The position numbers were made by a program, and so were the translations under genes. Of a DNA stretch of 64,000 nucleotides, positions 17,763 through 35,643 are shown piece after piece (position 1 is the first letter of the stretch; every line of letters starts with the position of its first letter). The DNA is from Sinorhizobium sojae CCBAU 05684 (GTDB taxonomy: Bacteria > Pseudomonadota > Alphaproteobacteria > Rhizobiales > Rhizobiaceae): assembly GCF_002288525.1 (NCBI RefSeq), contig NZ_CP023068.1:1426001-1490000 (forward strand), given 5' to 3'. The notes beneath the pieces are model-generated. The model was not told where the DNA came from, ran no database searches, and saw nothing but the letters and a program-made list of their open reading frames with translations.

Positions 17763-17780
17763 TGATACCAGTTGGTCTTC
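17763..17780. promoter_or_regulatory. degenerate cluster palindrome
   Basis: TGATACCAGTTGGTCTTC keeps the left half (GATACC) of the cluster operator and a weak right half. It overlaps a separate wide repeat, AAGACCAA (17747) ... TTGGTCTT (17772). Possible operator for the gene at 17699. Confidence 0.3.
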
Positions 17781-17903
17781 TAATTCACTGATTCATGTGT
17801 GAGGGTCGTCAGCCTCAGTCGGACCACCTCAGCAAGGGACAGACCTTCGCGCAGCGATGGCGAGGCGGTCCTTTCTGCACACTGCGGCACGACCGCTTGC
17901 ACC

Positions 17904-18812
17904 TCACGCAAGCGCTTCTTGAAGGTAGAGGCTATCGAAGACTCCAGCGGCGGACGCACGCTTCCCTTCCTCAAGCAAACCTGCGCGGATCATCAGGTCC
18001 ACTGTGGTTTCGAGCGCTCTGTCGGGAATGGCGAGGCCCTGCGGCCACATGCCCATGTCGCGCATGTAGCGCAACCCTCGTAGCGCGAGATCGGCGTCCT
18101 TCGGCACGGTGATGCGCTGGAAAATCGGCAGCGTGATCTCCTCCTTCGCCGGATCGTTGGTGATCGCATGGGCTTCGGCGAGCGCTTTCAATAGCTTCCC
18201 CACTGTTTCGCCATTCGCATCAAGCCAGCTTTTCGCGGCGATGAGGGCTGCAAATACGATTTCCGGGATCGCATCATTGACCTCGCCGATCAGATTGTAT
18301 CCCGCGGCTTCAGCGATGAAGTTCCAGGGCGCCGGCTGTGGGGCACAGTCGATCGCTCCGGCCAGGAGAGCCTCCCAACGCTTCGTATGTACGCCGGCGA
18401 GCGCGAACTCATAGTCACCCGGGTACTTCAACCCTTCACGGCCAAGCAGCAGCTGCGTATAGATCGCCGTGCCTTCCGTAAGCGACGAGGTACCGACCTT
18501 CTTGCCCCTGAGTTCGGCGATCGAGTCGATCGACGGATGCGCCACGATCGACATGGGAAGGCGGTTCGAGTTCGACCCAACAACACGCAATTCGCCGCCA
18601 TTGATGTAGTTCGAAACGGCCCCTTCCGGCGGGGTAATCGCCAGATCCGCCACGCCCTCCAGAACGGCCGTCGTCGCCTTGTCGACGCTGCCCATGCGCA
18701 GATATTCGATCTTCAGCCCGTGTTTCGCGAAAAGGCCCTGCTCTTCGGCGACGAAGACCGGCAACCAGTTGAAACCCTGTGCACCGCCCGCCAGTTTGAC
18801 TGTGGTCGTCAT
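17904..18812 (-). CDS. NMT1/TauA-like substrate-binding-fold protein without signal peptide
   Basis: 302 residues from ATG 18812 (GGAGGAATATTC upstream). The fold is the periplasmic binding type of NMT1/SsuA/TauA: 'GAQGFNWLPVFVAEEQGLFA', 'LEGVADLAITPPEGAVSNY', 'LRGKKVGTSSLTEGTA'. No signal peptide precedes it, so it should stay in the cytoplasm. This makes a transport role doubtful. Cytoplasmic proteins of this fold are known as decarboxylases (4,5-dihydroxyphthalate decarboxylase) and other enzymes. It is the third gene of the P450-ligJ operon, 28 bp after ligJ, and is probably a catabolic enzyme or ligand-binding partner there. Confidence 0.75.
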   Translation of the reverse strand: MTTTVKLAGGAQGFNWLPVFVAEEQGLFAKHGLKIEYLRMGSVDKATTAVLEGVADLAITPPEGAVSNYINGGELRVVGSNSNRLPMSIVAHPSIDSIAELRGKKVGTSSLTEGTAIYTQLLLGREGLKYPGDYEFALAGVHTKRWEALLAGAIDCAPQPAPWNFIAEAAGYNLIGEVNDAIPEIVFAALIAAKSWLDANGETVGKLLKALAEAHAITNDPAKEEITLPIFQRITVPKDADLALRGLRYMRDMGMWPQGLAIPDRALETTVDLMIRAGLLEEGKRASAAGVFDSLYLQEALA

Positions 18813-18840
18813 GAATATTCCTCCATTTATCGCTGCGAGA

Positions 18841-19866
18841 TTACCGGCCTTGCGACTTGAGCCGCTTGTCGAGCAAGGGATAGACGCGCCGCGCATTGCC
18901 CTCGAAGATCGCGTGCCGGTCCTCGACGCTGAGATCGAGCGCGTCGATATAGCGCTTCGTGTCGTCGAAGCTGTGCCCCGTTTCTGGGTCCACCGCCTTG
19001 ACGGCGCCGAGCAATTCGGATCCGTACAGGATGTTCTTCTTGTCCACCACGCGGAACAGCGTATCGATGCCGGCCTGGTGGTAGACGCAGGTGTCGAAGA
19101 ACAGATTGTGCATCAGGTGCTCGGCCAACGGCGGCTTTTCGAGCATGATCGACAGACCCCGGTAGCGTCCCCAGTGATAGGGTGCAGCACCCCCACCATG
19201 GGGGATGATCAGGCGCAGCTTCGGGTGCCGCTCGAAAAGGTCGCCCTGTATCAACTGCATGAACACGGCCGTGTCGGCGTTGATGTAATGGGCGCCGGTC
19301 GTGTGCAGGCAGCGTTCGCAGGAGCCCGAAACATGGATCATCGCCGGCACGTCGAGCGCGACCATGGCCTGCCATAGTGGATCCCACCACTCGTCATAGA
19401 TTGGCGGCGCGCTCCACCTCCCCCCCGACGGATCCGGATTGAGATTGCAGCCGACGAAGCCGTGCTCGACGCAATGCTCCAGCTCGGCAATCACCGTCGT
19501 CAGATCCCCATTGACCGTTTGTGGCAATTGGCAGACACTGGCGAAATTGGCCGGGAACATATCCACGATACGCCTGATGTTATCGTTCGATATCCGCGCC
19601 CATTCGTTGGCGATCGCCACGTCATCAATATGGTGGCCCATCCCCGAGGCTCTGGGACTTATGATAGTCAGATCCGAGCCGCGCTCCTTCTGCAGCCGCA
19701 GTTGGTTCGCCTCGATGATCGCGTAGAGCTCGTCGTCGGAAATGCCCAGATAGGCCGGCCTTTCGGCCGCTTTACCTTCCGCATAGGCGACCTGCGCCTT
19801 GCGGAACTCGTGATGTTTCTGCGGCTCGGTAGTGAAGTGGCCGTGACAATCGATAATCAGGGTCAT
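18841..19866 (-). CDS. ligJ: 4-oxalomesaconate hydratase-like amidohydrolase
   Basis: 341 residues from ATG 19866, overlapping the P450 stop (TGATG). It is an amidohydrolase-fold protein with 'IIDCHGHFTT' at the N-terminus, 'RLQKERGSDLTIISPRASGM', 'VGCNLNPDPSGG', 'MIHVSGSCERCLHTTGAHY', 'IPHGGGAAPYHWGR' and 'YEGNARRVYP'-type ending ('FEGNARRVYPLLDK'). I recognise these blocks as LigJ, which hydrates 4-oxalomesaconate to 4-carboxy-4-hydroxy-2-oxoadipate in the 4,5-cleavage path of gallate and protocatechuate. The next enzyme, LigK, is encoded at 27937. An ACMSD-like decarboxylase is the alternative, but the context favours LigJ. Confidence 0.82.
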   Translation of the reverse strand: MTLIIDCHGHFTTEPQKHHEFRKAQVAYAEGKAAERPAYLGISDDELYAIIEANQLRLQKERGSDLTIISPRASGMGHHIDDVAIANEWARISNDNIRRIVDMFPANFASVCQLPQTVNGDLTTVIAELEHCVEHGFVGCNLNPDPSGGRWSAPPIYDEWWDPLWQAMVALDVPAMIHVSGSCERCLHTTGAHYINADTAVFMQLIQGDLFERHPKLRLIIPHGGGAAPYHWGRYRGLSIMLEKPPLAEHLMHNLFFDTCVYHQAGIDTLFRVVDKKNILYGSELLGAVKAVDPETGHSFDDTKRYIDALDLSVEDRHAIFEGNARRVYPLLDKRLKSQGR

Positions 19867-21056
19867 CACGCGTCCCACTTCGCCGGCAGCACGTTCACGC
19901 CGCGGAAGCGCCAGCCCTTGGCTTTGATCTCCTGTTCAGGATCGAGGCGCAGGTTCGGCAGTTGCCGAAAGGCTTCCTGAAGGGCGATCTCGCCCATGGC
20001 GCGCGACAGGAAATGGCCCGAGCAGAAATGCGGCCGGAAGCCGAAGGACACGTGCTGCTTCTTCTTGCGGAACATGTCGAACCGGTCCGGATTGTCGAAG
20101 CGCGCTTCGTCGCGGTTCGCGGACCCCATCACGATGGCAACCGATGAGCCTGCGGGGATAGTGGTGCCGGCAATCTCGAAATCTTCAAGCGCGATGCGCG
20201 GGGTCACTCCGATCGGTGCTATCCAGCGCAGTCCCTCGTCAAAGGCCCTGAGCGCGTGTGCGGATGGGTCTTCGGCCATGACTTTGGCCTGCTCGAGATT
20301 GGAAAGCAGTCCCGCGCAAGCATTTGCAGCCGCATGTCCCGGCTCCTGCAGTCCGCCCAAGATGATGACCCGCATTGTCGGCGAGATTTCCTTCAGGCTG
20401 CGAACCTGCCCATCGGGCATGCCGCCATGCATGACATGGCTCATCAGCGTGCTGTTCGGCTTCGACAATGCCGCTTCATAAAGCGCGCCAAGCTGGTTAT
20501 CGATATCCGCGAGTGCTGCGTCGAGCCGGTCCCAGACCGCCTGATCGTTGGATACGTTCTGCAGGCCGAGGGCCATTGCGTGAAACCACTCGACGAGATT
20601 GTCATTCGAAGTCTCAGTCAGCCCGATCACGTCGCCAATGCAGCGCACCGAGATCGGCTCGAAGAGCTCCGTCGTGAGATTCGCCTCGCCTTTGGGCTTG
20701 ATCTCGTCAAGGAAGCACTGGACCACCGGAAGCGTGAGGCGCTCGACATAGGAACGCACCCGCTCCTGCGTTAGGTTGAGGTCGATGCCTTCGCGCAGGC
20801 AGGCATGCTCGTCGCCTGACATGGTCAGGACGTTCGGCATGCCCATGACGCGTGCCTCGGGTCGATCCGCAGCACCGGACGGCCCGAAGACCCTGTTGGT
20901 CGCACCAACTGTGCGGCAATCGTCATAACGGGTAACGAAATACTCGTTGGTGCCCTCGAAGAGCGCAACAGGCGCCTCGCTCCGCAGCCGCGCATAGACC
21001 GGGTACGGGTCGTTGTACAGATTTGCGCCCGTCAGTGCTGACGCGTCATATGCCAT
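19866..21056 (-). CDS. cytochrome P450 (class I, aromatic O-demethylase-like)
   Basis: 396 residues from ATG 21056 (GGAGG upstream). The heme-binding loop is 'FGFRPHFCSGHFLSRAMGE'; the Cys ligand is present but the usual Gly of FxxGxxxCxG is Arg. The ExxR helix is in 'ALRAFDEGLRWIAP'. The I-helix reads 'LGGLQEPGHAAANA', lacking the usual acid-Thr pair; similar 'LQEPG' I-helices occur in the GcoA (CYP255) guaiacol O-demethylase group. A separate ferredoxin and FAD reductase in the cluster would supply electrons. It is the first gene of an operon with ligJ, with an operator at 21183. Likely substrate: a methoxylated or otherwise substituted aromatic (inference). Confidence 0.88.
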   Translation of the reverse strand: MAYDASALTGANLYNDPYPVYARLRSEAPVALFEGTNEYFVTRYDDCRTVGATNRVFGPSGAADRPEARVMGMPNVLTMSGDEHACLREGIDLNLTQERVRSYVERLTLPVVQCFLDEIKPKGEANLTTELFEPISVRCIGDVIGLTETSNDNLVEWFHAMALGLQNVSNDQAVWDRLDAALADIDNQLGALYEAALSKPNSTLMSHVMHGGMPDGQVRSLKEISPTMRVIILGGLQEPGHAAANACAGLLSNLEQAKVMAEDPSAHALRAFDEGLRWIAPIGVTPRIALEDFEIAGTTIPAGSSVAIVMGSANRDEARFDNPDRFDMFRKKKQHVSFGFRPHFCSGHFLSRAMGEIALQEAFRQLPNLRLDPEQEIKAKGWRFRGVNVLPAKWDA

Positions 21057-21182: not shown

Positions 21183-21198
21183 GATACCAGTCAGTATC
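21183..21198. promoter_or_regulatory. cluster operator, P450 promoter
   Basis: GATACCAGTCAGTATC, an inverted repeat of the cluster type. On the minus strand TTGACA lies upstream with 15-16 bp spacing to GATACT, so the site covers the -10 of the P450-ligJ promoter. Confidence 0.75.
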
Positions 21199-21257: not shown

Positions 21258-21275
21258 AAATACCCAATGGTATTT
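21258..21275. promoter_or_regulatory. cluster operator variant, dehydrogenase promoter
   Basis: AAATACCCAATGGTATTT is a perfect 7-bp-arm palindrome 46 bp upstream of the dehydrogenase start. A related half-repeat (ACCCAGTAGTATGT) follows at 21280. The arms differ from the consensus at the outer bases. Confidence 0.6.
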
Positions 21276-21320: not shown

Positions 21321-22430
21321 ATGACGGAGACAATGCGCGCCGCGCGGCTGCACGCGGTCGGAGAACCGATGAGAATAGATGAGGTGGCGCGACCCGTGGC
21401 CACCGGAAGCGACGTGGTTGTCGAGGTCAAGGCCTGCGGCATGGTACCCAATCTCGCCAATGTTCTCGCGAACTGGGAAAGCTGGTACCCGCAAATGCCC
21501 TTGCCGCCGCGTCCCGCGATTCATGGCCTCGATCCTTCGGGAATTGTCCATCAGGTCGGAGAGCAGGTCGTGGCGCTCAAGCCCGGCGACCGGGTCTATG
21601 TTAATCCAGGCCGTTTCTGCGGCGCCTGCCACGCCTGCTCGTCTGGACGCCCGCAGGCCTGCGATCATTGGACGCTCGGCGGCTACTTCGGCTACAACCC
21701 GAACAGCCTGGAAATGTTCAAGCGCTATCCCTTCGGCGGATTCGGCGAATACATGCTGGCTCCGCAGGCCCAAGTCATCAAGATTCCGGACAACATGTCC
21801 TTCGTAAAGGGCTCGCGGATGGGCTATCTCGGCACGTCCTACGCAGCCTTGAAGAAGTGCGGTCCGCTTATGGGGCGCTCGCTGATCATCAACGGCGCAA
21901 CCGGGACGCTCGGCGTCGGCGCCACTCTTCTCGCGCTCGCAATGGGGGTCGGCAAGATCTATGCGGTCGCGCGTGGGGACGAATTGCTTGCTCGGCTGAA
22001 GGCGCTTGCGCCGGACAGGATCGAAGTCTTTTCGAACCGGACCAGCTCAAGCGGTGAGTTTGTGAAGGCCAAAACCGGTGGGGTCGGTGCCGACCTGATG
22101 CTCGACACGCTCGGTGCCAAGGCGCCGCTCGATTCCATGCTCGACGCCATGAAGGGCGTGCGCAGAGGTGGTCGCATCGTCAATATAGGCGGCACCGCCG
22201 GCGACCTTCCCGTCGACGTGAAATGGTGGATGGACGAGCAGATGGAGCTGATCGGCTCCGTCTGGTTCACCGCCGCCGAGGGCATGGAAATCGCCGCAAT
22301 GCTCGAAAGCAAGGTCGTCGACCTCTCCGTCATGGAGCCAAAGGTCTGGCCGCTCGAAAGCATCAATGAGGCCATTTCCGGTGTCGCCTCGGGCGATGGC
22401 GGCTTCACCTACTACGCTGTTACGATCTGA
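21321..22430 (+). CDS. zinc-type alcohol dehydrogenase (MDR superfamily)
   Basis: 369 residues, ATG 21321 after GGGAGG. It is a medium-chain dehydrogenase/reductase. The structural zinc loop is 'CGACHACSSGRPQAC', and the nucleotide-binding turn 'GATGTLGVGATLLA' is the Rossmann GxGxxG equivalent. The catalytic-zinc Cys position reads 'KACGMVPNL', with the usual His-Thr/Ser missing, so zinc binding at the active site may be altered. It is transcribed away from the P450 operon from a shared, doubly palindromic region, so it is likely co-regulated. It may oxidise or reduce an aromatic alcohol/aldehyde intermediate; the substrate is not readable. Confidence 0.85.
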   Translation: MTETMRAARLHAVGEPMRIDEVARPVATGSDVVVEVKACGMVPNLANVLANWESWYPQMPLPPRPAIHGLDPSGIVHQVGEQVVALKPGDRVYVNPGRFCGACHACSSGRPQACDHWTLGGYFGYNPNSLEMFKRYPFGGFGEYMLAPQAQVIKIPDNMSFVKGSRMGYLGTSYAALKKCGPLMGRSLIINGATGTLGVGATLLALAMGVGKIYAVARGDELLARLKALAPDRIEVFSNRTSSSGEFVKAKTGGVGADLMLDTLGAKAPLDSMLDAMKGVRRGGRIVNIGGTAGDLPVDVKWWMDEQMELIGSVWFTAAEGMEIAAMLESKVVDLSVMEPKVWPLESINEAISGVASGDGGFTYYAVTI

Positions 22431-22710: not shown

Positions 22711-24129
22711 TCAGAGCTGGGTCTGACGCTTAGTGATTGATGCCTTGACGATCTCCTCGGTGATCTTCTTGGCGTCGCCCAAGAGCATCATCGTGCCGTC
22801 CTTGTAGAACAGCGTGTTGTCAATGCCGGCATAGCCGGAACCGAGCGAGCGCTTGACGAACAGGCAGGTCTTGGCCTTGTCGACGTCGAGGATCGGCATG
22901 CCGTAGATCGGCGAGGTCTTGTCGTCGCGCGCCGCCGGGTTGGTGACGTCATTGGCGCCGATGACATAGGCGACGTCGGCCTGCGCGAACTCGGAATTGA
23001 TGTCCTCGAGTTCGAACACCTCGTCGTAAGGCACGTTCGCCTCGGCGAGCAGCACGTTCATGTGCCCCGGCATGCGGCCGGCGACCGGATGGATCGCGTA
23101 TTTGACCTCGACGCCCGCCTCCTTGAGCTTGTCCGCCAGTTCTCTCAGCGCATGCTGGGCCTGCGCCACCGCCATGCCGTAGCCGGGCACGATGATCACC
23201 TTCGAGGCGTTCTGCATCAGGAAGGCGGCATCGTCGGCCGAGCCCTGCTTGACCGTCTTCTCAACGCCGTCGTCGCCACCGGCCGAAGCCGTCTCGCCGC
23301 CGAAGCCGCCGAGGATAACCGAGACGAAGGAGCGGTTCATGCCCTTGCACATGATGTAGGAGAGGATCGCACCGGAGGAGCCGACCAGGGCCCCGGTGAT
23401 GATCAGCGCCAGGTTGCCGAGCGTGAAGCCGATGCCGGCCGCCGCCCAGCCGGAATAGGAGTTGAGCATCGACACCACCACCGGCATGTCGGCGCCGCCG
23501 ATCGGGACGATGATCAAAACGCCGAGCGCCAGCGACAGGAGGACGATCGCCCAGAAATTGAAGTGGCTCTCGGTCAGCGCCAGGCCGATGATGAAGAAGA
23601 CGACGAGCGCCGCGAGCGCCAGATTGATCAGGTGGCGGTAGGGCAAGAGGATCGGCTTGCCGGACATGCGGCCGTCGAGCTTCAGGAAGGCGATGATCGA
23701 GCCGGTGAAGGTGATGGCGCCGATGGCGACGCCGAGGGCCATCTCGACCAGAGCCTGGGCATGGATCGCGCCGATCTCGCCGATGCCGAAGGAGGACGGC
23801 GCGTAGAGGGCGGCGGCGGCAACCAGCACCGCCGCAAGGCCGACCAGCGAGTGGAAGCCGGCGACGAGCTGCGGCATCGCCGTCATCGGGATGCGCTTGG
23901 CGACATAGGCGCCGACGCCGCCGCCGAGCGCGAGACCGAGCACGATCAGCAGGAAGCCGCCGAGCGAGGGCTGCGCCAAGAGGAGGGTCGTGACGATGGC
24001 GATCGCCATGCCGACCATGCCATAGGCATTGCCCTTGCGGCTGGTGGTCGGGTGCGACAGACCCCGGAGCGCCATGATGAACAGCACGCCGGAGACGAGA
24101 TAGAGGAAGGCTGCAAAGTTCGCGTTCAT
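22711..24129 (-). CDS. pntB: NAD(P) transhydrogenase subunit beta
   Basis: 472 residues from ATG 24129; the longer open frame upstream is antisense-like and lacks homology. The N-terminal half is a run of membrane helices forming the proton channel ('FAAFLYLVSGVLFIMALRGL' start). The C-terminal half is domain III, which binds NADP(H): 'IIVPGYGMAVAQAQHALREL', 'HPVAGRMPGHMNVLLAEA', 'GANDVTNPAAR', 'VKRSLGSGYAG'. With the two alpha subunits it uses proton motive force to make NADPH from NADH. It is the last gene of the ligK operon. Its placement suggests a cluster-dedicated NADPH supply for the P450 chain. Confidence 0.95.
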   Translation of the reverse strand: MNANFAAFLYLVSGVLFIMALRGLSHPTTSRKGNAYGMVGMAIAIVTTLLLAQPSLGGFLLIVLGLALGGGVGAYVAKRIPMTAMPQLVAGFHSLVGLAAVLVAAAALYAPSSFGIGEIGAIHAQALVEMALGVAIGAITFTGSIIAFLKLDGRMSGKPILLPYRHLINLALAALVVFFIIGLALTESHFNFWAIVLLSLALGVLIIVPIGGADMPVVVSMLNSYSGWAAAGIGFTLGNLALIITGALVGSSGAILSYIMCKGMNRSFVSVILGGFGGETASAGGDDGVEKTVKQGSADDAAFLMQNASKVIIVPGYGMAVAQAQHALRELADKLKEAGVEVKYAIHPVAGRMPGHMNVLLAEANVPYDEVFELEDINSEFAQADVAYVIGANDVTNPAARDDKTSPIYGMPILDVDKAKTCLFVKRSLGSGYAGIDNTLFYKDGTMMLLGDAKKITEEIVKASITKRQTQL

Positions 24130-24139
24130 TGGCCCCGCC

Positions 24140-24550
24140 TCACTTTTCTTTCTTCTTGTACATGGCGAGCATGCGCTGGGTGACGAGGAAGCCGCCGAAG
24201 ATGTTGACCGAAGCAAGCACCAGCGCGACGAAGCCGAAGCCGGTGGCAAGCCCCGAGGCCGAGATACCGACGGCAAGCAGCGCGCCGACGACGATCACCG
24301 AGGAGATCGCATTCGTCACCGCCATCAAGGGCGTGTGCAGTGCCGGCGTCACCGACCAGACGACGTAGTAGCCGACGAAGATCGCCAGCACGAAGATCGC
24401 CAGGCGGAAGACGAAGGGATCGATCGCACCGCCAGTGGCGCCATGGGCAACGGCCCCGGCCGCATCCGGCACGTATTCGGCGGCGGTCCTGACCGCCTCG
24501 ACCGCCCGTTCGAGGTCTGTCAGTGCCTTGTCCAAGAGTTCATTCGCCAT
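24140..24550 (-). CDS. pntAB: NAD(P) transhydrogenase subunit alpha part 2
   Basis: 136 residues from ATG 24550; a GTG one codon earlier is possible. It holds the membrane helices that in E. coli are the C-terminus of PntA: '[20 protein letters not shown]', '[20 protein letters not shown]', 'FVTQRML'-type ending ('[13 protein letters not shown]'). The three-gene split is standard in alphaproteobacteria. It overlaps the pntAA stop (TGATG) and is 10 bp from pntB. Confidence 0.94.
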
Positions 24551-25704
24551 CACTTGTTCCCCTCTTTCGCGCCGCCGAAGGCCGGGTGCACGACCGTGCC
24601 GCCGTGGCTCAGCGCCGTCGCCTTGACGAGTTCGTCCTCCATGTTCAAAGCCAGCCGCTTTTCCTCCTTCGAGACCAGCGTCTCCAGGAAGGTGACGAGG
24701 TTCTTGGCGTAAAGAAGCGAGGCGGAGGCGGCGATGCGGCCAGGCACGTTGAGGTGGCCGACGACCTTGACGCCTTCCACCTCCGCGACCGTGCCGGCTT
24801 CGGCGCCTTCGACATTGCCGCCGCGCTCGACGGCGAGGTCGATGACAACCGAGCCGGGCTTCATGGATTTCAGCATCTCGCGCGTGACGAGCCGCGGCGC
24901 CGGCCGCCCCGGGATCAGCGCCGTGGTGATAACGATGTCCTGCTTGGCGATGTGCTCGGCGACGAGCGCCGCCTGTTTGGCCTGGTATTCCTTCGACATT
25001 TCCTTGGCATAGCCGCCGGCGGTCTCGGCCGCCTTGAACTCCTCGTCCTCGACGGCGATGAACTTGGCGCCAAGCGAGGCGACCTGCTCCTTGGCGGCCG
25101 GACGGACGTCGGTGGCGGACACCATGGCACCCAGGCGCCGGGCGGTAGCGATCGCCTGCAGGCCGGCGACGCCGGCGCCCATGACGAAGACCTTCGCCGC
25201 CGGCACCGTGCCGGCCGCCGTCATCATCATCGGCAGCGCCCGGTCGTATTCATGGGCCGCGTCGATCACCGCCTGGTAGCCGGCGAGGTTCGCCTGGGAA
25301 GACAGAACGTCCATCGATTGCGCCCGGGTGATCCGCGGCATCAGTTCCATGGCGAACGCGGTGAGCCCGGCCTTCGCCATCCCGGCGATCGCCTCCTCGT
25401 TGCCATGGGGGTCCATGATGGCAATGACCAGCGCGCCCGCCTTGTAGCCCTTGATCTCGGCCACCGTCGGGCGGCGCACCTTCAGCACGACGTCGGCGTT
25501 CCTGGCGTCCTTCGCCGTGCCGATCCGCGCACCGGCCTTCTCGTATTCCGCATCGGGAATGCGCGAACTGAGGCCCGCACCGGCTTCGACGACGACCTCG
25601 AAGCCGAACGATCGGATTTTCTTCACCGTCTCAGGCGAGCCCGCCACGCGCGGCTCGTCGGGACTGTTTTCCCTTGCTATGTACACGGTCACATTCACCG
25701 CCAC
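24550..25704 (-). CDS. pntAA: NAD(P) transhydrogenase subunit alpha part 1
   Basis: 384 residues. It is the soluble NAD(H)-binding domain I. Blocks '[20 protein letters not shown]', '[20 protein letters not shown]', the nucleotide-binding '[20 protein letters not shown]' and '[19 protein letters not shown]' are typical. It lies 58 bp downstream of the ferredoxin gene, on the same strand, and overlaps pntAB. Confidence 0.95.
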
Positions 25705-25762: not shown

Positions 25763-26080
25763 TCAGTCTTCCGGCGCCAGCGTCACGATCATGCCCGCTA
25801 GCTCCGGGGTGAAGCGAACCTGGCAGGACAGCCGCGATTGGCTCCGGCGGTGATCCGAACTGTCGAGCAGATCGTCTTCGTCGACGGAGAGCGCCGGTAG
25901 ATGTTCCTGGAATTCGTCATCGACATAGACGTGACAGGTGGCACAGGAACAGCAGCCGCCGCAAAGCGCGAGCAACTCGTCCACGCCCGCATCGCGGATA
26001 TGCTCCATGATCGAGATTCCATCGCGCCCCTCGACGGGCACGACCTGTCCGTTTCGCGAGATAACCGTAAAATTCGACAT
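25763..26080 (-). CDS. [2Fe-2S] ferredoxin (adrenodoxin/putidaredoxin type)
   Basis: 105 residues. The cluster ligands are in '[14 protein letters not shown]' (Cys40, Cys46, Cys49; Cys43 and Cys44 are extra) and 'LSCQVRF'. The preceding '[20 protein letters not shown]' is the usual helix before the cluster loop. It probably carries electrons from the reductase encoded just upstream (start of that gene 27325) to the P450 at 19866. The extra Cys pair inside the loop is unusual but does not remove any ligand. Confidence 0.93.
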
Positions 26081-26110
26081 TCTATACCTCCCACATCGCT
26101 CTCGTCTGCT

Positions 26111-27325: not shown

Positions 27326-27389
27326 CGCGCCCTCCTCCGGCAGCGTAATTTGCACATGTGTTGATTTCCGCGCGTGCGAGCGATGTTGC

Positions 27390-27947
27390 TCAGGAACGCG
27401 CTGCTCCAATCAGGACGAAGGCCATCGTTGCCGGCAACGTCCCCTTGTTTCGCCAGGCATGGCGCGTTCCGCACTGGATCGCGATGTCGCCTTGGCGCAG
27501 ATGCACCTCCGCCCCGTCATCGAGCTCCAGCCAGATCTCGCCTTCGAGCACGATGTCGTAGTCGATCGAATCCGTCGTGTGCATGCCGGGGTTTTCGCGC
27601 TCGAAGAGTTCTGCGAGCCCCGGCAACTGCACCTGCTGCTCAACCGCCGCTGCTGCCGGATCGAAACTCGGGTCGGCCATCACCGAATCCGGCGGGAAAC
27701 GAACGATCATCAGGCGCGTCTCGCCGACGGAAGGCGTGATTGCGATCCCGGGCAGGGCGGGGTCCGATTCGTCCAGGGGAAGCTTCGGTTCGGGCGCCGT
27801 TGCCCAACAGACCGAAGTCACGAAGCCCGGGACGGAAGCATGAAGATGCGCATTGGGCACCTCTCCGTCGCTGATGAAGACAGAACGACCATTCCTGATG
27901 CCTGTCACCACCCGCCGCGGCACGTCAGTCTGCTTGTCAACCGACAT
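27390..27947 (-). CDS. cupin-domain protein
   Basis: 185 residues. The C-terminal half is a single cupin: '[20 protein letters not shown]', then '[20 protein letters not shown]'. The first motif has only one His well before the barrel strand ('[10 protein letters not shown]') and the second keeps His in 'GTRHAWRN', so the metal site may be incomplete. The N-terminal part ('[20 protein letters not shown]') is typical of cupins found beside aromatic and salicylate-like degradation genes. It overlaps ligK by 11 bp and precedes the reductase gene. A sensor or isomerase role is as possible as a dioxygenase. Confidence 0.8.
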
Positions 27948-28611
27948 AGACGAGTCCCTCCTCCAGGAGCTTCGGGCGCATATTGTTGACGTCGAGGCTC
28001 AGCTCGCCCGCTGCATAGCGCAGTCGCTTCTCCTCCTCCATGCGCTCCCGCTGCCGCCCCTTCTCGAGTGCTGCTGCCGCACTTTCGGCCGGGACTACGC
28101 AAACGCCGTCGTCATCGGCTACGATGACATCGCCGGGGTTGATCAGGCAGCCCGCACAGACGATCGGCACCTGGACATTGGCCAGGGTCTCCTTGACCGT
28201 GCCCTGTGCGAAAATCGATTTCGACCAGACCGGGAACTGCATCTCGGTCAGCGCCGCGACATCGCGGACGCCGGCATCGATGACGAGCCCGCGAATCCCA
28301 AGCGCTTTGGCGGAGGTCGCCAGGAGGTCGCCGAAATAGCCGTCGTCGCAAGGCGATGTCGGCGCCACGACCAGAATATCTCCCGGCCGGGCCTCGCCTA
28401 GCGCCACATGGATCATCCAGTTGTCGCCGGGCGCGACCTCGCAGGTCAGCGCATTGCCGGAAATCCTGGCGGGCCGGTAGATCGGCCGCATGTGGGGAGC
28501 GAGGAGCCCTTTCCTGCCCTGCGCCTCATGAATTGTCGCCACGCCAAGCTCGCCAAGACCGCGCACAATATCCTCGTCGGTCCGACTTATGTTTCGCATT
28601 ACCTTTGCCAT
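27937..28611 (-). CDS. ligK: 4-carboxy-4-hydroxy-2-oxoadipate aldolase (RraA-like)
   Basis: 224 residues from ATG 28611. RraA/HMG-aldolase fold: '[20 protein letters not shown]', '[20 protein letters not shown]', '[20 protein letters not shown]', 'AGVRDVAAL' (metal-ligand Asp and substrate Arg) and '[16 protein letters not shown]'. I recognise LigK/GalC/ProA, which cleaves the LigJ product to pyruvate and oxaloacetate and also decarboxylates oxaloacetate. It is first in a seven-gene operon (ligK, cupin, reductase, ferredoxin, pntAA, pntAB, pntB) from a promoter covered by the palindrome at 28673. Confidence 0.9.
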
Positions 28612-28672: not shown

Positions 28673-28690
28673 AGATACTAATTAGTATCT
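28673..28690. promoter_or_regulatory. cluster operator, ligK promoter
   Basis: AGATACTAATTAGTATCT is a perfect 18-bp palindrome. On the minus strand TTGACA lies 16 bp before GATACT, so the operator covers the -10 element of the ligK operon. Confidence 0.85.
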
Positions 28691-28805: not shown

Positions 28806-30047
28806 TCAGTGAGAGGGGGTCCTCCCCTCGAAGGAGATCATCTTTCCGAGCGGCTGGTAGGCAGAGCCGTCGAACTGAAAGAGCTGAAGGCTCTCGATCG
28901 GGTAAACGTCTTCAGCGCTCTTCGTATTGAGTGTGATCCCCGGCAACAGAAGATCCAGCTCGACGCCGTTAAGGTTGCGGACAGTCTCCATCAACGCTTC
29001 GCGCGTTGGCGCCTTCATCGACTGAAGCACCCTGACCAGCGCGTCGCCGGTTGCATAGCCGACCTGACCAAGCGCATCGTCCAGTGAATAGCGAGCCTTG
29101 GCGGCCTGATGATCGGCGACGTAACGGGTGACACCCGGATCGTCTCCTGGAGCAGTCGCATTCACCTGCTTCAGATATTGGCTGGTTATAACGCCCTTCG
29201 CATTTTCCAGACCCGCCGGCTTCAGGGACGCGACGGAAGCGGCGATGTTCGAGACGAGAGTCGTCGGCTTCCAGCCGCTTTCCGCCGCGAAACGCACGGC
29301 TTCGGCACCTTGCTTCGGACCGGTGATCACCACTAGTGTGTCCGCGCCGGAAGCCTTCAGGGTCGAAAGCTGGGTTTCGACGGTCGGATCGGCCGATGTC
29401 ACCGGCTGAGCGGCGGCGATTTGGATGTTTGACATGCTGACCGCGTCCTCGAGAGCCTTGCGGAAGATCTGCCCCGTCTCGGTGTTCAGATATAGCAGCG
29501 CGATCTTCGCCTGCGGCTTCGTCTCGACGAGGTAACGGGCGAACACGGCTGCCTCAGTCGTGAAGGACGGGACGAGACCTATCTCCCATTCCGGTCCCGC
29601 GAGTTCGTGGACGCCCGAATACATGAACAGGTTCGGCACCTCGCGCTGCGTAATATACCGGCCGATCGCCTGATTGTTGGGCGTTCCTGCAGTCGCAAGA
29701 ACGGCGAACACCTCCTCACGCTCCACCAGCTTTCGCACATTGGTGAGCGTGCGCTGCGGATCGAGGCCGTCGTCCTCCACGAGGAGCTCGATCCTGCGGG
29801 TCTTGCCGTCGCCCATCTTCACGCCTCCACCGGCATTGACGGCATCGACCTTCGTCCTGACGCCATCGGCGATCGCACCGATCGCCGCGACGGGGCCCGT
29901 CAGCGGTCCCGATATGCCGATCTTGACGACGTCGTCCGTAACGCCAGGGGTCTCGCTCTGCTGGGCCCGCGCGACGCTGGCCATGAGTCCAGCCAACGCC
30001 AGCACCTGCATCAGGCTGAAAGCTCCCTTCGGAATGCGTATCGGCAT
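28806..30047 (-). CDS. livK: branched-chain-amino-acid-type ABC substrate-binding protein
   Basis: 413 residues with a signal peptide (1-28, ending 'ASVARA'). Type I periplasmic binding fold of the Leu/Ile/Val and aromatic-acid group: 'VVKIGISGPLTGPVAAIGAI', 'RIELLVEDDGLDPQRTLTNV', 'RKLVEREEVFAVLATAGTP'. Members near aromatic catabolic genes bind benzoate-type acids rather than amino acids. It is last in the liv operon, one base after livM, ahead of a strong terminator. Ligand inferred to be the aromatic growth substrate of the cluster. Confidence 0.92.
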   Translation of the reverse strand: MPIRIPKGAFSLMQVLALAGLMASVARAQQSETPGVTDDVVKIGISGPLTGPVAAIGAIADGVRTKVDAVNAGGGVKMGDGKTRRIELLVEDDGLDPQRTLTNVRKLVEREEVFAVLATAGTPNNQAIGRYITQREVPNLFMYSGVHELAGPEWEIGLVPSFTTEAAVFARYLVETKPQAKIALLYLNTETGQIFRKALEDAVSMSNIQIAAAQPVTSADPTVETQLSTLKASGADTLVVITGPKQGAEAVRFAAESGWKPTTLVSNIAASVASLKPAGLENAKGVITSQYLKQVNATAPGDDPGVTRYVADHQAAKARYSLDDALGQVGYATGDALVRVLQSMKAPTREALMETVRNLNGVELDLLLPGITLNTKSAEDVYPIESLQLFQFDGSAYQPLGKMISFEGRTPSH

Positions 30048-30048
30048 G

Positions 30049-31059
30049 TCATTCTCCTCCCAATTGGCCGGGCAATGCGCCCGGCATCCGTGACAAAACC
30101 TTGAATTTGAGGGTACCCGGAACGGCCGCCTTGAGCTTGTCGATCCGCAATCCGGCGATGCCCTGGCGCGCGACCATCATCATGCCGATCAGGCAGAGGC
30201 CGTAGATCAAGCCGCCGAGCGCCGGGCTTATGTCGGTAGTAACACCCGGTACGAAGACCACGAACACCGCACCGATGAACGCGCCGGCAATGCTGGTGAT
30301 GCCGCCGACGATGCCGCCGATCAGGATGTCGATCGATTTCATCGGCAGGAAGGACTGGGGGCTGATGAAGCCGTTCAGGATGCAGAAGAGTCCGCCGCCG
30401 AGCCCTGCGAGTGCGGAACTCACGGCAAAGGCTGCCAGCCGGCCTTTCACCAGGTTGATGCCCATGGCCTCGGCGATCACCGGATTGTCGCGGACGGCGC
30501 GCATGAGGCGACCGGTGTCACCCCGCAGCAGCCGCCTGACGATCAGCACCGAAACCGCGGCGCAGATGAGCGTCAGGCCGTAGAGCCACGCTTCCTGGCT
30601 TCCCGCAAACCATTTCGGCGCAAACGGCTGATCGGTGGCAAGGCCGGTGACGCCGCCCGTGAGCCCGTCCATCTTCAACAAGAGTTGCGGAAAGGCGCAT
30701 GCGACGCCAAAGGTGATGATCGCAAGCTGCAACCCTTGCAGCCTCAGCGCCGGCAGCCCGAGTAGCACGCCGACCGAGCCGGTGACGATGGCCGATACAG
30801 GAAGAGTGGCGACCGGATCCCAGCCGAAATTGACGTTGAGGATAGCCGTCGTGTAGGCGCCAACTCCGAAGAGAGCGCCCTGTGCCAGGCAGATCTGGCC
30901 AGTGAAGCCGAGCAGCAGATTGAGGCCGAGCACAGCGATGCCGTAGGAGACCGCTATGCTGAACTCGAACAGCAGGAAGTCGGGGACCGTGAGAGGCAGA
31001 CCGAGGGCGGCCACAGCGAGAAGGCCCGCTGGGACAAATCGAAGATGTTGCGTGCTCAT
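30049..31059 (-). CDS. livM: ABC permease LivM-like
   Basis: 336 residues, about nine hydrophobic segments. 'ISYG'-type start region reads 'FSIAVSYGIAVLGLNLLLGF', then 'TGQICLAQGALFGVGAYTTA', both characteristic of LivM. 'RAVRDNPVIAEAMGINL' is the ATPase-contact loop. Its start overlaps the livH stop (ATGA). It pairs with LivH to form the pore. Confidence 0.94.
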   Translation of the reverse strand: MSTQHLRFVPAGLLAVAALGLPLTVPDFLLFEFSIAVSYGIAVLGLNLLLGFTGQICLAQGALFGVGAYTTAILNVNFGWDPVATLPVSAIVTGSVGVLLGLPALRLQGLQLAIITFGVACAFPQLLLKMDGLTGGVTGLATDQPFAPKWFAGSQEAWLYGLTLICAAVSVLIVRRLLRGDTGRLMRAVRDNPVIAEAMGINLVKGRLAAFAVSSALAGLGGGLFCILNGFISPQSFLPMKSIDILIGGIVGGITSIAGAFIGAVFVVFVPGVTTDISPALGGLIYGLCLIGMMMVARQGIAGLRIDKLKAAVPGTLKFKVLSRMPGALPGQLGGE

Positions 31060-31937
31060 AGCTTGACCACCGTGCGAGTACCGAAAAGGCCTACAGGCCG
31101 AACGAGCAGGACAAGGAGGGCGACGATGATCGGGATGACCACACGCAGATCCGCGCCGATGAAGGGAAGGAAGGCAGCGCCGACGCTTTCGGCCACTCCG
31201 ACGATCAAGCCGCCGATCATGGCGCCGAGCGGACTGTCCCAGCCGCCAAGAGTGGCCGACGCAAGGGCATAAAGCAGGATCGGCATCATCATGGTCGGAC
31301 TGAGAAACAGTCGCGGTGCGACCAGCGCAGCCGCGACGAACCCGATCGTTGCTGCAAAGCCCCAGCCAAGCATCAGCATGCGCTCTACGGGGATCCCGAC
31401 GAGGAGGCTCTTTTCACTGTCATAGGCGGAGGCGCGCATGGCGAGGCCGAGCCTCGTGAACCGGAAGGTCGCTCCCATCGCGATCGCAAGACAGAGAAGC
31501 ACCGCCAGCGTGCCGACGGCACTTGCCGTCACGCGAATGCCCAGTACGTCCCAGCCGACACTGGGGAACATTGAGGGAAAGGCTCGCTGGTCCGAGCCCC
31601 AGAGCCATAGCGAAAACGCCTGTAACACCACGAACAGGCCGAGTGTAACGACGACGACCGTTTCGACAGGGGCCTTGGAAACGGGCCGGACGACGAAGCG
31701 GAAGACGCCGATGCCAAGCAGGAAGGACAGAAGCGCGACGAGGGGGAAAGAAACCATCATCGGCAGCCCCCATTCGCAGAGCTGCCAGGCGCAATAGGCG
31801 GAGAAGGTGGCGATCTCACCCTGACCGAAATTGACGATGCGCGTTGCGCGAAAGATCAGGACCAGCGCCATCGCCAGCGACGCGTAGATGGCCCCGGAGG
31901 CGAGTCCATCGACGACGAGTTGGAAGAACAAAGCCAT
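31056..31937 (-). CDS. livH: ABC permease LivH-like
   Basis: 293 residues from ATG 31937; ten upstream in-frame codons are unlikely to be used. 'DGLASGAIYASLAMALVLIF' and 'RIVNFGQGEIATFSAY' are the LivH N-terminal signature. The ATPase-contact loop is 'TRLGLAMRASAYDSEKSLLV'. It begins one base after the livF stop and overlaps livM by 4 bp. Confidence 0.94.
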   Translation of the reverse strand: MALFFQLVVDGLASGAIYASLAMALVLIFRATRIVNFGQGEIATFSAYCAWQLCEWGLPMMVSFPLVALLSFLLGIGVFRFVVRPVSKAPVETVVVVTLGLFVVLQAFSLWLWGSDQRAFPSMFPSVGWDVLGIRVTASAVGTLAVLLCLAIAMGATFRFTRLGLAMRASAYDSEKSLLVGIPVERMLMLGWGFAATIGFVAAALVAPRLFLSPTMMMPILLYALASATLGGWDSPLGAMIGGLIVGVAESVGAAFLPFIGADLRVVIPIIVALLVLLVRPVGLFGTRTVVKL

Positions 31938-31938
31938 C

Positions 31939-32649
31939 TCACACTCCGAGGTAGGATTGCTGGACAACCTCGTTGCCGAGGAGGTCCCGTGCTGCGCCGC
32001 TCACCGTGATTGCTCCGGCTTCAAGAACATGGGCGCGATGGGCAAACTGCAGCGTCAAATCGGCATTCTGCTCGACGATCAGGAGCGTCATGCCGTGCTC
32101 GCGGTTGAGCGTCTTGAAGATCTCAAAGATCTCCTGCGTGATCGCCGGCGCCAGACCGAGCGAAGGCTCGTCGCACATCAGCAGCCTCGGGCGCGACATC
32201 AGCGCCCGGGCAAGCGCCAGCATCTGCTGCTCGCCGCCGCTGAGGCTGAGGGCCTGCTGCCGCCGCCGCTCGGAGAGCCGGGGAAAGGCCGCGTACCACC
32301 GTTCCATGTCGGAAGCGATCTGCCGCTTGTCGCCGATCGTATAAGCACCAGCCGCAAGGTTCTCCTCAACCGTGAAGTCGCCGAAGGTTCCGCGGCCCTG
32401 TGGTATGTGCGCAAGGCCGAGCGCCACCCTTTGTGCCGCGTTGCAGCCGTTGAGATTCGAGCCGCAAAAATCGACGGTTCCCCGGGCGGGCATGAGTCCC
32501 GACAGGGCTCTGAGGATCGTCGTCTTGCCGGCGCCGTTCGACCCGAGCAGCGCTACGATCGCGCCTTGCTCGACGGAAAAGTCAACGCCATGCAAAACGT
32601 CGGCTGCGCCGTATCCGGCAGACAGGCACTTCACCTGCAGCATTGTCAT
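31939..32649 (-). CDS. livF: ABC ATPase LivF-like
   Basis: 236 residues from ATG 32649 (GGAGGACACG upstream; a second ATG two codons on is possible). Walker A 'GSNGAGKTT', signature 'LSGGEQQML', Walker B 'LLMCDEPSLGL'. 'LVEQNADLTLQFAHRAHVLE' is the LivF-type H-loop region ('LIVEQN'). It overlaps the livG stop by 4 bp. Confidence 0.94.
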   Translation of the reverse strand: MTMLQVKCLSAGYGAADVLHGVDFSVEQGAIVALLGSNGAGKTTILRALSGLMPARGTVDFCGSNLNGCNAAQRVALGLAHIPQGRGTFGDFTVEENLAAGAYTIGDKRQIASDMERWYAAFPRLSERRRQQALSLSGGEQQMLALARALMSRPRLLMCDEPSLGLAPAITQEIFEIFKTLNREHGMTLLIVEQNADLTLQFAHRAHVLEAGAITVSGAARDLLGNEVVQQSYLGV

Positions 32650-33443
32650 CGTGTCCTCCCGAGATAGGCGTCGATGACTGCCGGATTGGCCTTCACCTCC
32701 ATGGGCGTGCCGCTCGCCAGATTGCGACCGAGATGGAAAACCTCGACGCGATCGCAAAGGCTCATGACGAGCCCCATGTGATGCTCGATTAGGACGATCG
32801 CGACGCCATGGTCCTCGCGAACGCGGGCGACGAGCTCGCCGAATTCAGCGACCTCGCCATGGGTGAGGCCGCCCGCCGGCTCATCGAGGAGAAGCACCGT
32901 GGGACGGGAGGCAAGCGCCCGGGCGATTTCCATCCGCTTTTGCGTCGGATAGGGCAGCGAGCCTGCCGCCTCGTCAGCAACGCCGGAAAGCTTGAGATCG
33001 TCGAGTATCGCACGGCACCGCTGCTCGCTCTCGCTTTCCCGATGACGGGCACGCCCGGGTCGAAGCACCGCCTCGACAAAGCGGCCGCCGGTCAAGTGGT
33101 GGGCGCCAAGCATGACATTCTCCAGAACCGTCATGGCGCCATAGATGCCGAGGTTCTGAAATGTGCGCGCAATGCCCATATGAATGATCCGGCGCGCGGG
33201 TACCGTCTCGATCGCCTGTCCGCAAAGACGGATCGAACCGGCGGTCACTGCGCTAAGCCGGGTGATGGAATTGAACAGCGTCGTCTTGCCGGCGCCGTTC
33301 GGTCCGATCAGGCCGCATATTTCGCCGGCATTTACGCTGAGCGAGACGCCCTTGAGCGCATGTATGCCGCCAAAGCGCACATCGACATTTTCGACGGAAA
33401 GCACCGGGCCGCCGCTGCCGGCAGCCTTGAGATCCACAGCCAT
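32646..33443 (-). CDS. livG: ABC ATPase LivG-like
   Basis: 265 residues from ATG 33443, with GGAGG upstream. Walker A 'GPNGAGKTT', LivG-type 'GIARTFQNLGIYGAMTVLEN', 'LPYPTQKRMEIARAL' in the signature position (Ser-Gly-Gly is not present as such, normal for LivG), Walker B 'VLLLDEPAGGL' and 'IEHHMGLVMSLCDRV'. It is the first gene of the liv operon, 80 bp from the palindromic promoter. Confidence 0.94.
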   Translation of the reverse strand: MAVDLKAAGSGGPVLSVENVDVRFGGIHALKGVSLSVNAGEICGLIGPNGAGKTTLFNSITRLSAVTAGSIRLCGQAIETVPARRIIHMGIARTFQNLGIYGAMTVLENVMLGAHHLTGGRFVEAVLRPGRARHRESESEQRCRAILDDLKLSGVADEAAGSLPYPTQKRMEIARALASRPTVLLLDEPAGGLTHGEVAEFGELVARVREDHGVAIVLIEHHMGLVMSLCDRVEVFHLGRNLASGTPMEVKANPAVIDAYLGRTR

Positions 33444-33522: not shown

Positions 33523-33540
33523 AGATACCGCAAAGTATCT
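33523..33540. promoter_or_regulatory. cluster operator, liv promoter
   Basis: AGATACCGCAAAGTATCT. On the minus strand TTGACA sits 16 bp before GATACT; the operator covers this -10, the same design as at ligK. Confidence 0.85.
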
Positions 33541-33831: not shown

Positions 33832-34248
33832 ATGATCGATTCACGAACTGCCCCCTACGCCATCCTCATACTGCGGGTGGCACTCGGGCTACTATTTCTC
33901 GCCCATGCCGGTTTGAAGGTCTTCGTCTTCACGCCGGCCGGGACGGCACAGTTCTTTGCAAGCCTCGGCCTGCCGGCTGCCCTCGCCTATCTGACGATCG
34001 CTGTCGAGACCCTGGGCGGCGTCGCCCTCATCGTCGGCTTTTTCGCGCGGGTGGCTGCGCTTGCCCTGATACCGGTATTGCTCGGCGCGATCATCACAGT
34101 CCATGCCGCGGCAGGCTTCTTCTTCACCAACCCGAATGGCGGATGGGAATTCTTGGCGCTGTGGATCGTTGGATTGGCGGCGGTTGTTCTTGCAGGCGAT
34201 GGTGCGCTTGCGGTGCGCCCGACCTTCAATCGCAAGGCAACCGGCTGA
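33832..34248 (+). CDS. DoxX family membrane protein
   Basis: 138 residues from ATG 33832. Four hydrophobic helices: 'ILILRVALGLLFLAHAGLKV' at the start is the DoxX signature. Others are 'IAVETLGGVALIVGFF', 'AALALIPVLLGAIITVHAAA' and 'FLALWIVGLAAVVLAG'. DoxX proteins sit in the inner membrane and accompany oxidoreductases and thiol/redox systems; the biochemical role is unclear. It is alone on the plus strand, converging on the TetR gene. Confidence 0.9.
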   Translation: MIDSRTAPYAILILRVALGLLFLAHAGLKVFVFTPAGTAQFFASLGLPAALAYLTIAVETLGGVALIVGFFARVAALALIPVLLGAIITVHAAAGFFFTNPNGGWEFLALWIVGLAAVVLAGDGALAVRPTFNRKATG

Positions 34249-34316: not shown

Positions 34317-34919
34317 TCAGCTCGCCTCTTCCTTGGCGCCGTAGGCCTCATACATCGATGTCAGGGCGACTTTCACCAGTTCGCCGACCGTCGGTCCATT
34401 TGTGAAGCTCGACGCCGCCCCATAGGTCAGCTCAAAAACGATGCCGCCGAGAGCGGTCGGCCCGGCGGGCGCCTCGCCCTCCGGGAACATCCGAAGCAGG
34501 ATTTTGCCGAGCCCCTCCCATTGAGCGCGGAACAGGTTCGAATGGCGCTCTCCGAAGGTGGCATTGCGTCGCGCGTGGCGGAAGAGCTCCAATGCCAGCA
34601 TCCCCCAGCTCGGGTCGGTAGAGCGCTCCTGGGCCCAACTGCTTAACGTATCGATCAACTCGCGCGGATCTTCGATTGGCCCGAGCAGTTCCTGGAGCTC
34701 GACCACGTCTTCGCCCGCATGGGTCTCGAGCAGGTAGAGGAAAATGTCTTCCTTGCCGTTGAAATTGGAATAGAAGGCTCCCTTGCTGAAACCCGCTTCC
34801 TCGGCGATGCGCTCGATAGTTGCGCCCTCGTAGCCTTCGCGGGCGACGACCTCGCGCGCGGACGCCAGCAGCTTTGCTTTCGTCCGCGCCTGACTCTGTT
34901 CCCGTGTCAATCGCGCCAA
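34317..34919 (-). CDS. TetR family transcriptional regulator of the catabolic cluster
   Basis: 200 residues; the start is TTG 34919 with GGGAGAG seven bases upstream. The N-terminal helix-turn-helix is 'ATIERIAEEAGFSKGAFYSN' (about 33-52), and the effector domain follows. The promoter region contains a cluster palindrome at 34950, so it should repress itself. Because the same palindrome covers the promoters of ligK, liv, P450 and frmA/doxX, it is the best candidate for the regulator of the whole 17.9-37.1 kb region. The inducer is probably the aromatic substrate or a CoA/ring-cleavage intermediate (inference). Confidence 0.92.
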   Translation of the reverse strand: MARLTREQSQARTKAKLLASAREVVAREGYEGATIERIAEEAGFSKGAFYSNFNGKEDIFLYLLETHAGEDVVELQELLGPIEDPRELIDTLSSWAQERSTDPSWGMLALELFRHARRNATFGERHSNLFRAQWEGLGKILLRMFPEGEAPAGPTALGGIVFELTYGAASSFTNGPTVGELVKVALTSMYEAYGAKEEAS

Positions 34920-34948: not shown

Positions 34949-34966
34949 GGATACCTCGCAGTATCT
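34949..34966. promoter_or_regulatory. cluster operator, tetR promoter
   Basis: GGATACCTCGCAGTATCT, one mismatch from perfect symmetry. On the minus strand TTGACG precedes GATACT by 15 bp. It lies 31 bp upstream of the TTG start. Confidence 0.8.
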
Positions 34967-34982
34967 CGAAAACATCGGAGCG

Positions 34983-35342
34983 TCAATCAAGCACGGCCAG
35001 GACGCACGCCACCGACCAGAAGATCATGAACTCCGGCCCCTGCTTCTGCCAGCGCCAGTTCCAACCGTTGATGCGAAGGACGGCATAGCTGGCGCCAAGC
35101 AGCACGGCGACAGCCAGCCCGGCGGCAAGGCGCGGAAAGATATTGAGAACCAGTCCCGCACCGGCAGTCAACTCAACGATAATGGTAATGATCACGAATG
35201 CGCCAGCCGGATGGAACCCGGCCTTGGCAAATGTGGCCGAGGCAGGCCCGACATTGCGCATTTTGCCGATGCAATGGGGAATGAACCACAGGCCGCACAG
35301 CATCCGAAGGATTGCGCTCGGTTCGATCAAGATAAAATCCAT
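34983..35342 (-). CDS. DoxX family membrane protein
   Basis: 119 residues. 'AILRMLCGLWFIPHCIGKMR' is the first helix and the DoxX-type Arg/His surface. Three more hydrophobic segments follow ('AFVIITIIVELTAGAGLVLN', 'LAAGLAVAVLLGASYAVL', 'FMIFWSVACVLAVLD'). It is 12 bp downstream of a small open frame on the same strand and upstream of tetR. Presumably it is transcribed from the frmA-side palindromic promoter. Confidence 0.88.
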   Translation of the reverse strand: MDFILIEPSAILRMLCGLWFIPHCIGKMRNVGPASATFAKAGFHPAGAFVIITIIVELTAGAGLVLNIFPRLAAGLAVAVLLGASYAVLRINGWNWRWQKQGPEFMIFWSVACVLAVLD

Positions 35343-35354
35343 TCCCAGGCCCTC

Positions 35355-35525
35355 CTATGCCGCGTTCGGCGCTTCGACGTGGCGCTTGCCGTCACCCGGT
35401 GCTGCCGTACCGCGCGACCTCTGGCGAGACTCCGCCACGAGCACCTCGCCGGAATCGTCTGTGACCGGCGCCCTCATAACAGCCCCCGAACCGCTCGGCG
35501 GCTGCGCTCCCGCGAAATCAAACAT
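35355..35525 (-). CDS. small hypothetical protein (56 aa)
   Basis: ATG 35525 is preceded by GGGAGGG at good spacing. It lies between the palindromic promoter (35626) and the DoxX gene, with a 12-bp gap to the latter. The product ('MFDFAGAQPPSGSGAV...') is hydrophilic, without recognised motif. Position and ribosome binding site support translation; a leader function is possible. Confidence 0.5.
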   Translation of the reverse strand: MFDFAGAQPPSGSGAVMRAPVTDDSGEVLVAESRQRSRGTAAPGDGKRHVEAPNAA

Positions 35526-35625
35526 TCGAACCCTCCCTGTCTCCGTCAACTTAGCTGAACGTCGTATCGCTCGTTTTTCCGAGCCAGCGTGTGAATACCA
35601 TCTCGAAACTGCGCCTTGCAATTTC

Positions 35626-35643
35626 AGATACCAAATAGTATCT
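35626..35643. promoter_or_regulatory. cluster operator between frmA and the doxX unit
   Basis: AGATACCAAATAGTATCT. On the minus strand TTGACG lies 16 bp before GATACT (doxX side). On the plus strand TTGCAA lies 17 bp before TATCTG (frmA side). One site could therefore repress both divergent promoters. Confidence 0.8.

Follow-up and report, generated by a model that had tools for sequence, protein, structure and literature searches.

DarR, a TetR-family repressor of mycobacteria and rhodococci, binds through Lys44 and Gly45 to the operator TAGATACTCCGGAGTATCTA, which has the form AGATAC-N6-GTATCT or ATACT(N)4AGTAT (PMC10636190, accessible part). Aryl-O-demethylation is reported to be a frequent bottleneck in lignin bioconversion; in the guaiacol O-demethylase GcoAB, the cytochrome P450 GcoA yields formaldehyde, and its partner GcoB combines a ferredoxin and a reductase in one three-domain polypeptide (PMC6021390, accessible part). 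The syringate system of Pseudomonas sp. NGC7 uses a Rieske VanAB demethylase, followed by oxalomesaconate steps, with a formaldehyde dehydrogenase gene in one operon and with two operons regulated by the GntR-type VanR2 and the LysR-type GalR (PMC12314914, accessible part). Here, we describe repeated palindromes in a 64,000-bp stretch of Sinorhizobium sojae CCBAU 05684 (contig NZ_CP023068.1, positions 1,426,001 to 1,490,000; referred to below as the window), through which, judging from sequence comparison, a local, autoregulated TetR repressor (34317-34919) very probably controls a regulon for methoxy-aromatic catabolism.

The regulator resembles DarR in its family, in a palindrome equal to ATACT(N)4AGTAT, in a site before its own gene, and in the Lys-Gly of the recognition helix, which aligns by position; it differs in that its proposed regulon is catabolic, DarR having c-di-AMP as its ligand and a different set of targets (DarR as described in the accessible part of PMC10636190). 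The P450 belongs to the same group as GcoA, and frmA encodes oxidation of the formaldehyde that GcoA yields, but the ferredoxin and reductase, fused in GcoB, are here encoded by two distinct genes, which belong to a different operon of the regulon than the P450. NGC7 shares the order of O-demethylation and then oxalomesaconate steps and the formaldehyde dehydrogenase gene; its regulators, two-operon layout, and demethylase class are different. Among the titles and abstract openings listed by a literature search, with most subscription journals outside its coverage, none describes this TetR regulon.

Operator sites and promoter geometry

A search of the complete genome (6.09 Mb, three contigs) for the strict core GATACN6GTATC gave five hits, all inside 14.5 kb of the window, and the reversed control pattern gave none. 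The 16-bp cores start at 21183, 28674, 33524, 34950, and 35627, within 1 base of the positions named in the original prediction (21183, 28673, 33523, 34949, and 35626). Window composition gives an expectation of ~3 strict-core places genome-wide, and the chance that five of five lie within one 14.5-kb span is ~1.6e-10; the genome-wide commonness that had been named in advance as grounds for refutation is not seen for this core. Looser forms lose signal against the control, and the strict core alone is therefore diagnostic. AGATACN6GTATCT with ≤1 mismatch has six places in the genome, of which four belong to the cluster, a fifth is at 43312, and the last is on a different contig; more relaxed searches were dropped as evidence, both genome-wide (≤2 mismatches; 52 places against 55 in the control) and in the window (≤3 mismatches; 13 against 8.8 expected).

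At all five main sites, the predicted TTGAC(A/G) box was seen upstream of GATACT, with the operator overlapping the −10 hexamer; on the minus strand, the spacing is 15, 16, 16, 15, and 16 bp, respectively. Four minus-strand operators cover the promoters of the P450-ligJ-NMT1 operon (21183-21198; −35 box TTGACA, 21219-21214), the ligK-cupin-fdr-fdx-pnt operon (28674-28689; TTGACA, 28711-28706), the liv operon (33524-33539; TTGACA, 33561-33556), and tetR itself (34950-34965; −10 box GATACT, 34965-34960; −35 box TTGACG, 34986-34981). The remaining operator (35627-35642) lies between doxX2 (minus strand) and frmA (plus strand), with TTGACG at 35664-35659 for doxX2; on its frmA side, a TTGCAATTTC stretch is preserved in close relatives. 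At each of these five promoters, the palindrome overlaps the −10 hexamer as well as the likely start, a position suited to blocking polymerase.

With all five TTGAC boxes facing the minus strand, the units served are P450-ligJ, ligK-pnt, liv, tetR, and doxX2 and not the dehydrogenase, doxX1, and frmA genes of the opposite strand. Membership of frmA and of the Zn-dehydrogenase rests instead on palindromes that precede these genes in the window and in relatives, and that of doxX1 is doubtful. The two variant palindromes of the original prediction (21258 and 17763) also fared differently. The one before the Zn-dehydrogenase, AATACCCAATGGTATT (21259-21274, plus strand), is a sixth, conserved site, present in four of five aligned relatives (the fifth has a gap). 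The other, GATACCAGTTGGTCTT (17764-17779), is a weak variant with one half-site broken; the place is covered by only one of five aligned relatives, in which the same half is broken, and its membership in the regulon is doubtful on this sequence.

Regulator and conservation across relatives

The proposed regulator (34317-34919, minus strand) is a TetR-family repressor of 200 amino acids with a TetR_N domain (PF00440; 53.2 bits, cutoff 24) and the recognition helix GFSKGAFYSNF, of which SKGAFYSNF is identical in all 37 orthologues. Its K46 and G47 fall, in an ungapped match, on chain positions 44 and 45 of the DarR structure 8sua (chain position taken as DarR residue number). The match to DarR is limited to the DNA-binding part (residues 12 to 65 of 200; E value, 2.6e-6). 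Identity with DarR itself was rejected, since only this part aligns by sequence and whole-protein homology was not found (by sequence; folds not compared). The operator suggests that, in different phyla, a single palindrome is read by TetRs that have these recognition residues in common, with ligands and targets that differ.

The TetR alignment, scanned against a genome contig collection, matched 48 loci. The 37 loci used (L033 to L069; TetR 45 to 96% identical) come from Rhizobiales, Pseudomonas, Pseudoduganella, and Actinobacteria; L070 (38%) was treated separately, and 20 control loci comprised L071 to L080 and ten loci of other TetRs (L007 to L010 and L016 to L021). ATACN6GTAT occurs 87 times in the 688 kb of the 37 loci, against 0 to 2 times in 20 Markov simulations, and is contained in 34 of these loci and in 1 of the 20 controls. 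That control, L075, has a 71% match to the TetR over residues 1 to 34 only; it may, from its sequence, be a broken orthologue and was retained as a control. The actinobacterial loci with the palindrome carry TetRs 45 to 52% identical, and in the Bryobacterales locus L070 (TetR 37 to 38% identical), AGATACCCTGTGGTATCA lies ~58 bp before tetR.

Other spacers from 0 to 16 gave 0 to 8 occurrences in the 37 loci, except N5 with 22; 12 N5 sites are located 40 to 43 bp before tetR. An N5 or N6 palindrome (15 to 16 bp) lies 40 to 45 bp before tetR in 15/37 loci; the window also has a site before tetR, as in the original prediction. In 22/37 loci, it lies 100 to 700 bp upstream, before a doxX2-tetR pair, and 28/37 have it in either position. 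Counted by distance from the tetR start, 15 loci have a site at ≤100 bp and 28 have one at ≤700 bp. The control with reversed half-sites, GTAT-N4-ATAC, occurs 28 times (0 to 5 times with the other spacers tried, 2 to 12), which we attribute to palindromes arranged in tandem at a distance of 18 bp, not all 28 having been traced. Such tandems stand ~2.6 kb after the tetR start in L040, L042, and L044 and ~7.6 kb after it in L041, L043, L050, and L057, and also at L064:8036-8069; their spacing suggests two dimers side by side.

Sites recur before P450, ligJ, ligK, Zn-dehydrogenase, frmA, liv, cupin, or doxX genes despite differing gene orders. At all six sites, alignments of the window with five or seven relatives show higher conservation in the half-sites than in the centers (identity to the window, 74 to 100% in half-sites, 40 to 83% in the six central bases, and 39 to 90% in the remaining intergenic DNA), with half-site identity reaching 99% at liv (seven relatives) and 100% at the tetR promoter (7/7 relatives). 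These figures include rows that lower the identities, namely L035 and L036, misaligned at doxX2/frmA (their sites are elsewhere), L095, with a gap at ligK, and L035, with a gap at P450/Zn-dehydrogenase. The cluster aligns with plasmid pNGR234b of Sinorhizobium fredii NGR234 at 98% coverage and 88.5% DNA identity.

The promoter arrangement is also found in the relatives. After removal of repeats with identical 36-base surroundings and of sites too close to a locus end, the window and the 37 loci hold 85 distinct sites, 49 of which have TTGAC at 15 or 16 bp on at least one strand; 53 of the 70 TTGAC occurrences ≤60 bp from sites fall at this spacing. Sites of this kind extend to Arthrobacter, Acrocarpospora, Nonomuraea, Microbacterium, and Pseudoduganella (L064, L066, L067, L069, and L038), and the spacing in Pseudomonas L037 is 17. 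The original claim of a single-TetR regulon is thus supported by cross-phylum co-occurrence, by the sites before tetR, and by the control loci.

Proposed mechanism and alternative explanations

Beyond the sites, geometry, conservation, and co-occurrence observed, we infer binding, repression, an inducer, and a substrate as follows. A TetR dimer would bind RATACY-N4-RGTATY over the −10 boxes of the five minus-strand promoters and before the plus-strand dehydrogenase gene and frmA, and, without inducer, would block RNA polymerase. Its release, by a methoxylated aromatic or by a product formed early in the breakdown, would switch on, jointly, liv uptake, aryl-O-demethylation by the GcoA-type P450 with its ferredoxin and reductase, and pnt redox balance, as well as the lower pathway of LigJ and LigK and the oxidation of formaldehyde by FrmA. 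The regulon probably strips methyl groups from plant aromatics and disposes of the formaldehyde released.

Several findings weigh against control by the local TetR through this palindrome. Across the window and its relatives, 36/85 sites are without TTGAC at 15 or 16 bp, and ATACYN4RGTAT has seven places genome-wide against six in the control, though six of the seven are in the cluster. The 5-bp-spacer form GATACN5GTATC, for which the control gave no hit, occurs twice in the genome, and neither place is in the cluster. Nor are the 37 loci independent, many being close relatives and several near-identical strains, and three of them (L045, L065, and L068) are without the N6 form; two of the three have N5 forms, one of these downstream of the tetR start, and L065, the sequence of which ends 289 bp before tetR, has neither. 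RATACYN4RGTATY is present in 191/297 genomes of the family, and genome G164 has eight copies with no match to this TetR at an E value of 1e-15; genomes with a close orthologue have 6 (S. sojae CCBAU 05684), 6, 4, 3, 2, and 2. Other TetRs therefore probably read the same palindrome, and the motif alone was rejected as a marker of this TetR. That the operator type is already known from DarR may explain why looser copies are so frequent in the family.

These copies also bear on an explanation that we regard as unlikely, in which the palindromes are real operators but a different TetR of the same genome, its recognition helix resembling that of the local TetR, binds them, either by itself or together with the latter. 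The genome has eight further TetR matches at E values of ≤0.001, and DarR, from another phylum, has the same operator (PMC10636190, accessible part). Set against this, ATACN6GTAT is absent from the four paralogue loci examined (L007 to L010, of the eight found), and the sites go together with the local TetR in different phyla and precede tetR. Moreover, P450s ≥79% identical were found in 3/397 genomes of the order (S. sojae CCBAU 05684 included); each of the three also has this TetR and, next to the P450, a site. Three more genomes have P450s 39 to 40% identical, with no palindrome within the 4.1 kb examined around them, and two of these three, searched for this TetR, gave no match. The TetR is present in other Sinorhizobium strains and was not found in any of four other genomes of the genus that were searched, and its spread is therefore patchy.

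That the local TetR mainly activates these promoters, as some TetR-family proteins do, is very unlikely given a palindrome placed over the −10 hexamer and likely start at five of them. Least probable, in our estimate, is a shared core-promoter element, a symmetric −10 box without any regulator. GATACT does fit a −10 hexamer, and TTGAC stands at regular spacing, but one half would be enough for a promoter, and both half-sites are conserved; outside the cluster, the genome has no strict palindrome, the 36 sites without TTGAC at spacing would be left over, and some palindromes are tandem, 18 bp apart.

Control by the local TetR through a known operator type would make the regulon ordinary in kind; what is unusual is its breadth across phyla, its two demethylase classes, and the presence of ligJ-ligK without a LigB-family dioxygenase in this genome. 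It offers a testable regulator-operator pair for P450-based aryl-O-demethylation, with regulon members predicted beside this TetR in 37 loci.

Genes of the regulon and ring cleavage

The first minus-strand operon encodes a cytochrome P450 of the GcoA (aryl-O-demethylase) group (19866-21056; best PDB match, 8u09, E value, 2.4e-85; GcoA 5ncb, E value, 3.8e-71), similar to GcoA over its full length (5ncb; residues 39 to 427 of a 428-amino-acid reading frame). It is followed by a LigJ-type 4-oxalomesaconate hydratase (18841-19866; PDB 6dwv, E value, 2.4e-142, residues 1 to 340) and an NMT1/THI5-fold protein starting MTTTVKLAGG (17904-18812; PF09084, with the SsuA subfamily far under its cutoff); the last, in which no signal peptide was seen by eye, may have an enzymatic role and not one in transport. 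Divergent from this operon is the Zn-binding alcohol dehydrogenase-like gene (21321-22430, plus strand; PF08240 and PF00107).

The second minus-strand operon begins with the LigK 4-carboxy-4-hydroxy-2-oxoadipate aldolase gene (27937-28611; NF006731 and TIGR02798 above cutoff) and continues with a cupin gene (27390-27947; PF07883), the product of which, by eye, looked unlikely to be a typical metal dioxygenase. The ferredoxin reductase (26111-27340; profile matches) and 2Fe-2S ferredoxin (25763-26080; annotation of the Sinorhizobium alkalisoli counterpart) that follow (25763-27340 together) are the probable redox partners of the P450. The operon closes with pntB, pntC, and pntA of a proton-translocating transhydrogenase (22711-25704; PF02233, PF01262, and PF05222 for B and A; for the middle gene, an S. 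alkalisoli counterpart annotated as transhydrogenase subunit alpha).

A liv-type ABC importer with a binding protein, two permeases, and two ATPases occupies 28806-33443 (minus strand). Two doxX genes (PF07681) lie on either side of tetR, doxX1 (33833-34248, plus strand) and doxX2 (34983-35342, minus strand), and are followed by the S-(hydroxymethyl)glutathione dehydrogenase gene frmA (35700-36812, plus strand; TIGR02818 above cutoff). In S. alkalisoli, the next gene past the cluster is annotated as fghA, encoding S-formylglutathione hydrolase, which acts in the step after FrmA.

In two relatives, a VanA-type Rieske O-demethylase is found. In the Pseudoduganella locus L038, an operator lies before the VanA-type gene, and the 20.6 kb examined showed no P450. 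In Pseudomonas sp. ACN8 (L037), two imperfect palindromes 18 bp apart precede vanA, and a further two precede ligK; the locus has eight N6 places with a single core mismatch, four of which are these palindromes, and no P450 was seen in the DNA examined. The VanA-type genes and their VanB-like neighbors span L037:4660-6752 and L038:6498-8554, VanB being identified by Pfam in L037 only and by eye in L038. The common theme is therefore aryl-O-demethylation, by a P450 or a VanA-type enzyme, with formaldehyde disposal.

The LigJ hydratase and LigK aldolase of the gallate or protocatechuate-4,5 pathway are both in the regulon. These enzymes handle 4-oxalomesaconate and its hydrate, normally formed after ring cleavage by a LigB-family dioxygenase. 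The LigB family (PF02900) had no match in the S. sojae CCBAU 05684 genome (other dioxygenase families not searched) and none in three of five other genomes with this TetR (G063, G194, and G212); the remaining two had 1 and 4. Uncharacterized enzymes are suggested both by the occurrence of two demethylase classes with a single operator type and by a lower pathway that lacks its usual ring-cleavage enzyme. It is possible, and we offer this only tentatively, that the TetR-operator module controls, from rhizobia to Actinobacteria, an undescribed conversion of methoxylated aromatics into 4-oxalomesaconate; P450 and VanA-type Rieske enzymes would be interchangeable in the demethylation, and the ring would be opened, without a LigB-type dioxygenase, by a protein of the regulon (the cupin, the cytosolic NMT1-fold protein, or the Zn-dehydrogenase).

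Near tetR in Mesorhizobium waimense (L041:10694-16215) are genes for FAD aromatic-ring hydroxylase-like, Ldh_2, glyoxalase/extradiol-type, and FAA-hydrolase proteins, and FAD_binding_4 oxidase genes stand beside tetR in two Actinobacteria (L064:8163-9767 and L069:8285-9910). Beside the cluster in the window, an IstB-like ATPase gene (40462-41271) and an ISL3-type transposase match (41293-41955) are probable remains of a mobile element, and the gene at 13252-15126 combines an adenylate/guanylate cyclase domain with TPR repeats.

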